DNA of 64,000 bases from Companilactobacillus farciminis KCTC 3681 = DSM 20184 (GTDB lineage Bacteria > Bacillota > Bacilli > Lactobacillales > Lactobacillaceae). Every line of letters starts with the position of its first letter. Position 1 is the stretch's first letter. Below the pieces are notes generated by a model, which made no database searches, was not told where the DNA came from, and saw only the letters and a list, made by a program, of their open reading frames with translations. The stretch is taken from NCBI RefSeq assembly GCF_002706745.1, contig NZ_CP017702.1, positions 1,054,001-1,118,000 of the forward strand, written 5' to 3'. Below, one piece after another: positions 3,499-58,780 of this stretch. Both the position numbers and the translations under genes were made by a program.

Positions 3499-3549
3499 AA
3501 GACAGTATTAGAACAGCTTTTTGGAGCTGATTTAATACTGTCTTTTTTT
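3499..3549 (+). terminator. Terminator after the two-component operon
   Basis: A long stem pairs AAGACAGTATTA with TAATACTGTCTT and is followed by a run of T residues. Confidence 0.85.
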
Positions 3550-3647
3550 CCGTAATACCAAAAATATTCTCTATATTAAATTATTGTTACAGTGCTTGTA
3601 ATGAAACACTTTTACTAGTAATTTAAAGCTTATAAGGGGATAGAAAA

Positions 3648-4550: not shown

Positions 4551-4585
4551 AAGTAAAACTCATTTAAAGAGTTTTACTTATTTTT
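4551..4585. terminator. Bidirectional terminator of the amidase gene, now split from yidC by an IS
   Basis: AAGTAAAACTC (4551-4561) and GAGTTTTACTT (4569-4579) form a perfect 11-bp stem, with A residues on the left and T residues on the right, so it can work on both strands. The insertion sequence landed in its T tract. Before the insertion this hairpin lay directly beyond the yidC stop codon. Confidence 0.85.
4578..4585. repeat. Left 8-bp target-site duplication of the ISL3-type element
   Basis: TTATTTTT at 4578-4585 is repeated exactly at 6040-6047, directly outside the two inverted ends. Eight base pairs is the duplication expected for the ISL3 family. Confidence 0.9.
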
Positions 4586-4714
4586 GGTTCTAAACTTTCT
4601 GGTATTGATGAACAATCAATACCAGTTTTTTTATACTCTTTGAAATAAAAAAAGAACATCACTGTTCTCGTGTTAAGATTTAAGCGACCAAACCAAATCA
4701 AACAGGAGTGAACA

Positions 4715-5968
4715 ATGATATCCCAAGACAATTCTATACTATGTGCACTAGACATAAAAGACAATAATATAAAAAATGTTTCAGTAAAGGATGCCAAGAT
4801 AAAAAAACGTGGCGTTATAAAACACATTAAAATAGTGAATGCTGAACTTTCCTATTCTCTACATAGATGTCCTCAATGTGGAATGAATACACTAGTTAAA
4901 AACGGTAAAAGAACTACTAATGCAAGATTAGCTAGCTTTAGTGGTATCGAGTACCACCTAGTACTAAAAAAGCAACGATTTTTGTGTAGGAACTGTGGAA
5001 GCACCTGCGGTGCTCACAGTGATCTACTGATTAAAAATCATACTATGACCAAACAGATCAAGAATAGAATCTTTTCCATGGCTAAAGAATCATTCACTCT
5101 GTCATCAATAGCTAAAATCATTGGCATTTCAGCCAATACTGTAAGTAGAATTCTATATAGTAATACCAAAATTCCTACTAGATGTGTGCATTTGCCAGAG
5201 AATCTTTGTTTTGATGAGTTTCGATCCGTAAAAAATATTTTTACATTTATCGCTATCGATGCGGATACACATAGATTGGTCGAATTGATACATAACAGGC
5301 TGTCTAAAACAATAACCGAACATTTTATAAACAGTTACAGCTTATCAGAACGACAAGCTGTAAAAACTGTATCAATCGATTTAAATGCCAATTATCAATT
5401 AGTCGTTCATCGTATATTCCCAAACGCTCGCATTGTCGTAGATAGGTTTCATATAGTTCAACTTTGTAGTAGAGCCCTAGATCAAGTACGTATCAATTCT
5501 TTAAAAAAATTGCCTGATAAAAAATCTCGTATATACAAAGCAATGAAATCTGATTGGCGTCTATACCATCTTCCAGAGGAAGATGTAGACGATACCCATA
5601 TAAAATTTATTGTCGGTATAAATGAATTCATGACTATCCAAAATGCCATCGATATAGCTACTGATGAAATACCAATTTTCAAGAAGGCCTATGATACTTA
5701 CCAGAGTATTCAAAGATCGATAAGGTATCACGACATAGACTTACTTCAGGAAACTATTTCTGGATATAAAAGAAATGGGACCGCAATGGATACAGCCATT
5801 ACAACGTTACGAAAAAATAAAAATTATGTAAAAAATAGTTGCTTATTGCCATACTCCAATGGCCCTCTAGAGGGCACCATTGGAAAGATAAAGAAACTAA
5901 AAAGAAATTCCTATGGCTTTAGAAATCTTGAACACTTTATTAAGAGAATAAAACTGATTTGTGCATAG
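4715..5968 (+). CDS. ISL3-family transposase
   Basis: The enzyme catalyses cut-and-paste movement of the surrounding element. An N-terminal zinc-finger region has CPQCG (about residue 49) and CRNCG (about 91). An HTH-like segment follows (about 115-140, with IAKIIGISANTVSRIL). The DDE catalytic domain shows FIAIDADT, VSIDLNANY, VVDRFHIVQL and the C-terminal SNGPLEGTIGKIKKLKRNS with the conserved Glu. At 417 residues it is close to the family's usual length and has no frameshift. It has a GGAGTG ribosome binding site just upstream. Confidence 0.94.
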   Translation: MISQDNSILCALDIKDNNIKNVSVKDAKIKKRGVIKHIKIVNAELSYSLHRCPQCGMNTLVKNGKRTTNARLASFSGIEYHLVLKKQRFLCRNCGSTCGAHSDLLIKNHTMTKQIKNRIFSMAKESFTLSSIAKIIGISANTVSRILYSNTKIPTRCVHLPENLCFDEFRSVKNIFTFIAIDADTHRLVELIHNRLSKTITEHFINSYSLSERQAVKTVSIDLNANYQLVVHRIFPNARIVVDRFHIVQLCSRALDQVRINSLKKLPDKKSRIYKAMKSDWRLYHLPEEDVDDTHIKFIVGINEFMTIQNAIDIATDEIPIFKKAYDTYQSIQRSIRYHDIDLLQETISGYKRNGTAMDTAITTLRKNKNYVKNSCLLPYSNGPLEGTIGKIKKLKRNSYGFRNLEHFIKRIKLICA

Positions 5969-5973
5969 AAAAA

Positions 5974-5996
5974 GAGCATCCTCGGTGAGGATGCTC
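5974..5996 (-). terminator. Hairpin inside the IS acting on minus-strand transcripts
   Basis: GAGCATCCTC-GGT-GAGGATGCTC is a perfect 10-bp stem directly after the transposase stop. Read on the minus strand it is followed by TTTTT, the layout of an intrinsic terminator. It would stop the yidC transcript from running antisense through the transposase gene. Confidence 0.6.
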
Positions 5997-6039
5997 AATG
6001 AGCTCAAAATCATTCATCAATACGATTTGACAAAGAGCC

Positions 6040-22639: not shown

Positions 22640-22713
22640 TGTCACAGGTGAGATTCGAACTCACGACCTACGGTTTAGAAGACCGTTGCTCTATCCAACT
22701 GAGCCACTGTGAC
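22640..22713 (-). tRNA. tRNA-Arg (anticodon UCU), copy 1
   Basis: The minus strand folds as a cloverleaf. The acceptor stem is GTCACAG/CTGTGAC with discriminator A. The D arm contains CTCAGTTGGATAGAG, the anticodon arm is ACGGT-CTTCTAA-ACCGT, and the T arm has GTTCGAATC. The anticodon UCU reads AGA/AGG, the main Arg codons in AT-rich genomes. The 3' CCA is not encoded. A promoter TTGCAT-N17-TATAAT lies just upstream on the minus strand. Confidence 0.96.
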
Positions 22714-22836: not shown

Positions 22837-22910
22837 TGTCACAGGTGAGATTCGAACTCACGACCTACGGTTTAGAAGACCGTTGCTCTATCCAACTGAG
22901 CCACTGTGAC
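22837..22910 (-). tRNA. tRNA-Arg (anticodon UCU), copy 2
   Basis: This copy is identical in sequence to the one at 22640-22713, 197 bp away on the same strand. It has its own promoter and its own terminator, so the two are separate transcription units made by a duplication. The flanking sequences differ, so the duplication is not very recent or covered only the gene. Confidence 0.96.
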
Positions 22911-57943: not shown

Positions 57944-58186
57944 ATGACAGAACAAGCTGTATTTGACAAAATCAAAGCATTGATTGCTGACAAATTTGAA
58001 GTAGACGCTTCAACAATTACTAAGGAAACATCATTTACAAAGGATTTGGATGCGGATTCTATCGACCTTGTAGAATTTGTACTAGAACTTGAGGATGAGT
58101 TCGGTTCAGAAATTCCTGATGACGATGCCGAAAAGATTACAACTGTTGGTGAAGCAGTTAGCTATATTTCTTCACATCAAGGATAA
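57944..58186 (+). CDS. acpP: Acyl carrier protein
   Basis: ACP carries acyl chains on a phosphopantetheine arm attached to Ser39 in DLDADSIDLVEFVLELED. The 80-residue acidic four-helix protein is standard. It is co-transcribed with plsX. The transcript then enters the structured region at 58.2 kb before reaching a terminator at 58694. Confidence 0.96.
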   Translation: MTEQAVFDKIKALIADKFEVDASTITKETSFTKDLDADSIDLVEFVLELEDEFGSEIPDDDAEKITTVGEAVSYISSHQG

Positions 58187-58221
58187 GATTTTTATTTGAA
58201 GTTTGAGTGGGAATAAGAATT

Positions 58222-58389
58222 CCGTCGTCCGTTCGGTCCTGGAAAATGCTGGAGAATGTGCGCACGACTTGGAGTCTTTGCTAAGCCCAAGTTCAGGCAA
58301 AGTCTTCAAGCTCGACCTTTCACTAGGCAATAAATTGCCAAGTGAAATTTCACGGCTGAGCATTTTCCAGGGCTCTCACTCCCGACTAG
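58222..58389 (+). ncRNA. Candidate structured RNA element, copy 1 (plus strand)
   Basis: In order: CCGTCGTCCG (58222-58231); the outer helix GTCCTGGAAAATGCT (58236-58250) paired with AGCATTTTCCAGGGC (58359-58373); and CACGACTTG (58263-58271). Arm a pairs CTTGGAGTCTTTGC (58268-58281) with GCAAAGTCTTCAAG (58297-58310). Next come CAAGCTCG (58307-58314) and arm b, TTTCACTAGGCAAT (58318-58331) with ATTGCCAAGTGAAA (58334-58347). CGGCTGAGC (58353-58361) and CCGACTAG (58382-58389) close the element. Copy 2 shares all blocks and spacings. I do not recognise the class. It lies in the 3' UTR of acpP. Confidence 0.65.
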
Positions 58390-58489
58390 ATAGTGTTTCT
58401 AAATTTATTTCATTTAATTGATTGAAATAAACAGTGATATAACCATTCGATTAATGCAAATCCAATGTTATTAAAATAAATAATAGAAA

Positions 58490-58656
58490 CTAGTCGGTAG
58501 CAAAAGTTCTGTGATGGCTCAGCCGCCAAATTATTCTTAGCGATTTATCGCTTAGAATAAGACCGAGCTTGGAAACAATACGCACTTGTTCCATGTATTG
58601 GTTTCAAGTCGTGTCGGCAGCGTTCCAGCCAATCACAGAGCTTTTGCGGACGACGG
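58490..58656 (-). ncRNA. Candidate structured RNA element, copy 2 (minus strand)
   Basis: Read on the minus strand: CCGTCGTCCG (58656-58647), an outer helix of about 20 bp (58627-58647 with 58500-58519), and CACGACTTG (58613-58605). Arm a is CTTGAAACCAATAC with GTATTGTTTCCAAG. CAAGCTCG (58571-58564) follows, then arm b, TTATTCTAAGCGAT with ATCGCTAAGAATAA. CGGCTGAGCC (58525-58516) and CCGACTAG (58497-58490) close it. The helices differ from copy 1 but pair in the same way. No promoter is obvious for a minus-strand transcript. Confidence 0.6.
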
Positions 58657-58693
58657 CAGTATAACTCACATTCAAAATTTAATAACGAAATTT

Positions 58694-58717
58694 AAGGCCA
58701 AGTGGTCTTATTTTTTT
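58694..58717 (+). terminator. Terminator between the structured region and rnc
   Basis: AAGGCC-AAGT-GGTCTT with one wobble pair, followed by ATTTTTTT. It would end transcripts from plsX-acpP after they cross both structured elements. Confidence 0.7.
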
Positions 58718-58748
58718 ATCCAGCTAATTATTTAATAGAAAAGTTTAG

Positions 58749-58754
58749 TATAAT
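58749..58754 (+). promoter_or_regulatory. Probable -10 box of the rnc-smc-ftsY operon
   Basis: TATAAT lies about 27 bases before the rnc start, after the terminator. No strong -35 box is seen 16-18 bp upstream. Confidence 0.45.
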
Positions 58755-58780
58755 TAATATTATCGGAAAGGGGACACGTT

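Follow-up and report, generated by a model that had tools for sequence, protein, structure and literature searches.

A large family of inserted doublets with covarying, folded ends in Companilactobacillus farciminis and related genomes

The gap between acpP and rnc of Companilactobacillus farciminis KCTC 3681 = DSM 20184, within the 64,000-nucleotide stretch of contig NZ_CP017702.1 analyzed here (the window), is occupied by an inserted unit with two distinct inverted ends, which belongs to a large and apparently undescribed family. The original prediction described two matching structured copies in this gap. That observation was confirmed and proved to be understated, as copy 1 and copy 2 form the opposite (left and right) ends of a single inserted unit of approximately 0.5 kb, a point missed in the earlier reading. 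The element is probably a non-autonomous, REPIN-like mobile DNA doublet, the folded ends of which would be recognized as DNA. PP-binding and ribonuclease III domains were present in the products of acpP and rnc, respectively, and the outer neighbors of these genes are, judging from their open frames, presumably plsX and smc. The parts of the locus, with bit scores for covariance model R1, are as follows.

58187..58695, no strand: whole insert, from the acpP stop codon to the acpP terminator, about 509 bp, in a gap of 594 bp compared with 85-86 bp in 19 of 29 relatives read
58187..58221, plus strand: left outer foot, AT-rich and matched to the right foot as a weak terminal inverted repeat; boundary approximate
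58222..58389, plus strand: end 1 (copy 1) with an outer helix of class B, 165.7 bits, included in the 53-copy alignment A2
58318..58347, plus strand: arm b of end 1, a stem with an A-A mismatch and a TAAA loop
58390..58489, no strand: spacer between the ends, by eye without a terminator-like hairpin, unlike several other doublets
58490..58656, minus strand: end 2 (copy 2) with an outer helix of class C, 159.9 bits
58531..58560, minus strand: arm b of end 2
58657..58695, minus strand: right outer foot; boundary approximate
58696..58717, plus strand: native acpP intrinsic terminator (GGCC....GGTC and a T run), pushed downstream by the insert

An inverted repeat, I2, spans the feet (58196-58231 with 58647-58682, 75%), and conservation of the flanks outside the motif CCGTC has faded by about 30-35 nt. 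In the short acpP-rnc gaps of relatives, GGCC....GGTC and the T run directly follow the stop codon.

The seven sequence blocks reported for the two copies were found in the same order in both, and the intervals between block starts (41/43, 44/42, 46/46 and 29/28) were reproduced exactly. By eye, arm b of both copies was a 14-bp stem with an A-A mismatch at pair 8, an AA loop and five pairs changed on both sides, as described, and arm a had four pairs altered on both sides and one mismatch in both copies. Each end is about 168 nt in length. An outer helix encloses an internal loop (GCTGGAAC/TGAGC), which is followed by a 6-bp helix and then by a three-way junction from which arms a and b extend. 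The outer helix is long, of unrelated sequence and of three or four classes; the internal loop is conserved. Arm a is interrupted by a bulge and by a C-T mismatch; arm b has an A-A mismatch and a loop that is mostly TAAA. Fold energies calculated with DNA parameters gave z values of -5.2 for copy 1 and -7.8 for copy 2, with 0 of 200 shuffles as good for each, and folding of the whole insert gave a z of -11.8.

The fold was also evident from aligned copies. RNAalifold performed on 53 aligned elements from the source genome (A2, a sequence-only alignment) predicted 52 pairs, of which 35 showed double changes, and 97.0% of cells paired; further pair types in A2 were not above those in shuffles (499 of 500 shuffles at least as high). 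Comparable values were noted in relatives, in which 96.7% of cells paired and 49 of 52 pairs showed double changes among 58 matches at 36 loci, and for the best 150 of 161 matches at loci from named genomes (96.4%, 50 of 52 pairs). Alignments A3 and A4 were fitted to the model and are hence biased towards R1. Covariation of paired columns, which the original prediction expected to exceed background, was 0.667 among the best 150 of 161 matches as opposed to 0.055-0.107 with partners slid. In the same 150 copies the C.T and A.A mismatches were retained in 145 and 146, respectively, across genera, an argument for selection on the fold as such.

The claim that compensatory change marks a selected fold was upheld in that the fold is maintained and double changes abound, and requires qualification in that part of the change may have another origin. 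At the orthologous site of locus L022, the core of the element was 76% identical to that of genome G026 and the flank about 90%, while the G026 core at this site was closer (88.6%) to another copy from the source genome. Whole arms thus differ between close species at one orthologous site as though swapped among copies, and part of the two-copy compensation may therefore be module exchange. These findings, together with G.T and A.C pairs of nearly equal frequency and units with internal deletions in genomes G005 and G007, are also those expected of passive inverted repeats, in which template switching corrects quasipalindromes and recombination spreads and homogenizes copies while the fold goes unrecognized. 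We consider this explanation very unlikely. Template switching would erase the C.T and A.A mismatches, the retention of which argues against passive correction of quasipalindromes; moreover, conservation extends to the letters of loops and junctions, the topology is identical in many genera and, as indicated by the empty sites described below, units are either present or absent whole.

When copy 1 was used as a DNA query, at least 40 strong places were found in the 2.55-Mb source genome (best 40 of 83 candidates scored), and the 40 loci (39 and that of the window) contained 56 elements, 53 of which were aligned in A2. Surveys of genomes were performed with R1, which gave at least 97 matches in the source genome at E<=0.01 (best 150 of 1110 candidates scored). 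Matches were present in 34 of 36 Companilactobacillus genomes, 20 of which contained at least 40 (best 79 at most scored per genome), so that the further copies in related genomes anticipated by the original prediction were found in large number. In the family, matches were noted in 49 of 201 genomes and 11 of 40 genera (best 14 scored per genome), and in a sample of the phylum in 3 of 398 genomes including the source genome, those in the other 2 of 397 being weak (best 7 scored per genome). In named genomes, scanning for a sequence pattern gave at least 80 loci that were then scored with the model. Among the loci listed, matches occurred in Companilactobacillus, Lapidilactobacillus, Levilactobacillus, Lacticaseibacillus, Schleiferilactobacillus, Pediococcus and Lactiplantibacillus, as well as in MAGs labeled Limosilactobacillus and Lactobacillus.

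In the two phylum genomes with weak matches, both from one other Bacillota family, the matches were full-length and scored 37.8 and 37.0 bits; of nine genomes from this family two (G238 and G413) matched, with two matches each (E-values being those for a single genome). Four distant elements (L321, L322, L324 and L325) possess long inverted ends and have arm b CTARGCGCTAAAGCGCYAAG in common with the model, including the A-A mismatch and the TAAA loop. A full second end was not seen within approximately 3 kb of each, and L321 has a partial second match nearby. The distant elements may be old relatives, or the likeness may be confined to one arm.

The original prediction knew of no named family of this layout, and Rfam 15 likewise gave no hit to the element at the gathering cut-off, whether in the window or at 16 loci from relatives. 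A permissive Rfam scan of 58150-58780 gave four hits only, with E-values of 0.21-5.4. Elsewhere in the window, two tRNA genes with equal Rfam scores (22640-22713 and 22837-22910, minus strand) lie 123 bp apart. Residence on plasmids or phages was considered and dropped when one class A copy gave no blastn match in either collection, from which records near the source genome may be missing. A description of the element family was not found in the literature searched, most subscription papers being outside its scope.

That the unit is a doublet was evident from the arrangement of neighboring matches. In the source genome, 24 of 24 neighbors within 1 kb were tail-to-tail, one of these being an overlapping pair, and at the named loci 45 of 52 were so arranged (best 150 of 161 matches). 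The two ends belonged to different outer-helix classes in 15 of 15 source-genome doublets when three or four classes were distinguished and in 12 of 15 with two classes, the 15, out of 24, being those in the first set of loci; in Lapidilactobacillus achengensis the ends differed in 15 of 15 doublets with two, three or four classes. When whole elements were clustered two ways, the ends differed in only 2 of 15 doublets from the source genome and 12 of 15 from L. achengensis. The distinction between ends therefore resides in the outer helix.

At the model level, 49 of 97 matches in the source genome had no partner. Remnants of the inner block of a second end were detected within 260 nt of 10 of 24 single copies with at most 2 mismatches (0.75 expected), of 6 of 24 with at most 1 mismatch (0.04 expected) and of 15 of 24 with at most 3 (5.8 expected). 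Places in the source genome at which the class A outer foot might stand alone were also considered, and all 7 adjoin known ends. Terminator-like hairpins were present in several doublet spacers. Spacers of up to 889 bp at the named loci listed contained open stretches of at most 162 codons, none of which looked gene-like by eye. Many of the spacers of Lapidilactobacillus doublets (L118-L181) are about 400 nt in length and alike by eye, without a recognized gene, and there may be further structure inside them.

The unit appears to be mobile, as occupied and empty sites were both observed. In a comparison of 30 acpP-rnc loci including that of the source genome (six more genomes being outside this count), the gap was 85-86 bp in 19 of the 29 relatives read and consisted of the terminator followed by the rnc promoter, without an insert. 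The doublet was present in G026 in reversed order, and the units of G005 and G007 had the deletions already mentioned. In four other Companilactobacillus loci (L093, L100, L101 and L102), larger or different inserts were noted in the gap after the terminator; the acpP-rnc gap is possibly a hot spot for insertion. Two further sites were compared in 8 of 12 matched relatives each, and the site of L022 was empty (28-31 bp) in 5 of the 8 and that of L031 (17-21 bp) in 2 of the 8. The unit at the L022 site is flanked on both sides by ATAAAG. Less clear duplications elsewhere amounted to TCAT with an imperfect extension at one site and at most TAA at acpP, and a target duplication of constant length was not found at the sites compared (ATAAAG at one only).

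Insertions were noted at terminators. At 3 of 4 sites read closely, the unit either separated a stop codon from a terminator or replaced the terminator, and where the window has a native intrinsic terminator (3499-3560), C. formosensis and G026 have a class A element instead. Since insertions occur at terminators, including that between acpP and rnc, the element may alter read-through in operons.

A terminator is also the site of an ISL3-family insertion sequence in the window (4585-6039), which is flanked by the 8-bp duplication TTATTTTT, encodes a protein that matches DDE_Tnp_ISL3 and is absent from this position in C. formosensis and G026. The first eight letters of the outer tip of the class A copy L041, GGCTCTTTC, recur in the tip of this insertion sequence, GGCTCTTTG. 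This likeness of sequence and the shared siting in terminators might be taken to indicate that the element is a MITE derived from an ordinary DDE insertion sequence, perhaps of ISL3 type, in which the fold is incidental to terminal inverted repeats. Against this are the restriction of the likeness to the tip of one copy, the tip being variable among copies, the lack of a constant 8-bp duplication at element sites, the failure to find a unit with its own transposase between its ends, and a covarying internal fold that it leaves unexplained. Such an origin therefore appears rather unlikely, and the ISL3 resemblance is at present a lead only.

Other candidates for the mobilizing enzyme fared no better. 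The Y1_Tnp domain (PF01797), although present in 18 of 36 Companilactobacillus genomes, was not found in the source genome or in the copy-rich genomes G004, G005, G022 and G026, and mobilization by a RAYT or IS200/IS605-type TnpA was rejected on its absence from the former. An autonomous form was not recovered either, as the only tail-to-tail pair in the source genome with a gap of 1-3 kb (1.8 kb) holds an IS3-type insertion by which the spacer hairpin is split; in L277 (1000-2770) the IS3-type element within the spacer hairpin of a doublet has two frames, with rve and HTH domains. A recurrent partner gene was sought by clustering 537 open frames from the named loci listed, and the top families (e.g., ABC transporter, universal stress protein and peptidase, as judged by eye from first residues) looked ordinary.

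The covarying fold was further examined for pairs that distinguish RNA from DNA, since a fold held as RNA should tolerate G.U but not A.C. Alignments were made with MAFFT and RNAalifold, columns with a majority of G.T were excluded, and counts are of cells rather than events. For control RNase P RNA, taken from 30 of 41 family genomes, the counts were 195 G.T and 15 A.C (13:1), whereas the ratios for the element were 60:33 (A2), 60:66 (A3) and 103:109 (A4), i.e., about 1:1 to 1.8:1, although decaying copies alone would push this ratio towards 1 and many copies may be decaying. Private departures from the Watson-Crick consensus were to G.T in 16 cases and to A.C in 28 (p 0.10). The test says that folds of single copies are not kept as RNA and stops short of proving single-stranded DNA. 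An RNA role, which the original prediction had entertained, is at best weakly supported in view of helices so unlike those of RNase P RNA, and it is further weakened by the inconstancy of both adjoining genes and orientation.

The same results bear on the possibility that the element is a dispersed structured RNA (an sRNA, an element of the 3' UTR or a component of an RNA-guided system) on a mobile carrier, with selection acting on the fold of the transcript. The very strong covariation would agree with such an RNA, as would the finding that G.T occupied at least 15% of cells in 4, 3 and 2 columns across the alignments and A.C in none. With pairs re-predicted on the complementary strand, G.T:A.C ratios were 77:19, 57:40 and 113:33 (4.1, 1.4 and 3.4), and these ratios and the common G.T columns make some strand preference possible. 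Elements were also scarcer in divergent gaps (7 of 68 compared with 47 of 198, Fisher p 0.02, among the loci listed and with genes taken as simple open frames), so that many may be co-transcribed with the upstream gene, and at source-genome loci the left gene was directed towards the unit in 23 of the 38 cases called. However, the adjoining gene was directed into the end in just 55 of 100 cases among the named loci listed, and with these two counts a fixed orientation to genes was ruled out. Given also the near equality of G.T and A.C among the best 150 of 161 matches, the private changes, the lack of a constant neighbor gene at the named loci listed and the lack of a match in Rfam 15, we regard a structured RNA as unlikely.

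For the preferred reading, that of a mobile doublet recognized as folded DNA, we propose a mechanism for a unit that comprises a left and a right end, inverted and facing each other over a short spacer devoid of coding sequence, with the AT-rich feet at the outer sides. As single strands, the ends would fold into one common three-way junction; their sequence drifts while the fold, the A-A and C-T mismatches and the loops persist. An enzyme supplied in trans would read both folded ends as DNA and move the unit, copies would swap arms, probably by gene conversion, and copies would decay, often with the loss of one hairpin. The family, its covarying fold, the arrangement in doublets with distinct ends and the occupied and empty sites are seen in the data; recognition as single-stranded DNA, gene conversion and the trans-acting enzyme are what we infer from them. 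Points against this reading are that neither a transposase nor an autonomous partner was found in the searches described, that no duplication of constant length was found at the sites compared, that the common G.T columns and the complementary-strand ratios allow some strand preference, and that 49 of 97 matches in the source genome have no partner at the model level. More tentatively, it is possible that the family represents an unnamed class of mobile DNA in which two unlike three-way-junction ends are recognized in single-stranded form by an enzyme that would differ from Y1/RAYT and would not be encoded by the unit. This class may be old, to judge from the shared arm b in the other Bacillota family (2 of 9 genomes, G238 and G413). 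As a natural record of how a fold is retained while its letters change, the family is very deep; it also cautions that strong covariation is no proof of RNA and points to an enzyme, so far only inferred, that recognizes folded DNA.

Several known systems resemble the element in part. MITEs are gene-less, have inverted ends and may occupy a given site in one relative and be missing from it in another, all of which is likewise true of the element; it differs in that no parent insertion sequence or constant duplication was found and in its conserved multi-helix fold. BOX and ERIC repeats of other bacteria are dispersed, modular, intergenic and able to fold, as is the element, which presumably differs from them in sequence, size and organization.

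Closer parallels are found among REP sequences. GTAG- and CGTC-tagged REPs are described in the main text of PMC3733652, in which the string 'Lactobacill' is absent, as inverted dimers, often heterodimers, that lie mostly downstream of genes; the CGTC REPs have no known transposase according to that text, and the REPs of both tags consist of a single short stem (8-9 bp for CGTC) and an unpaired tag. The element shares with these the inverted dimer and, in the CCGTC with which its ends begin, the letters of the CGTC tag, but the tag of REPs is unpaired (PMC3733652) whereas GTC of the element pairs within the outer helix, and the common letters are probably due to chance. REPINs, as described in PMC3116915, are inverted REP doublets moved by RAYT transposases. 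The REPs themselves are short hairpins (PMC3116915), and the ends of the element, about 168 nt with a three-way junction, are not the short (20-40 bp) tagged palindromes of that group; furthermore, the two ends of the element are of unlike class and a Y1/RAYT gene was not found in the source genome. In agreement with REPINs, the element occurs as inverted doublets (24 of 24 in the source genome and 45 of 52 at named loci, best 150 of 161 matches), and both are non-coding, intergenic doublets of inverted folding ends that are present in many copies per genome and accompanied by singlets resembling decayed doublets (PMC3116915).
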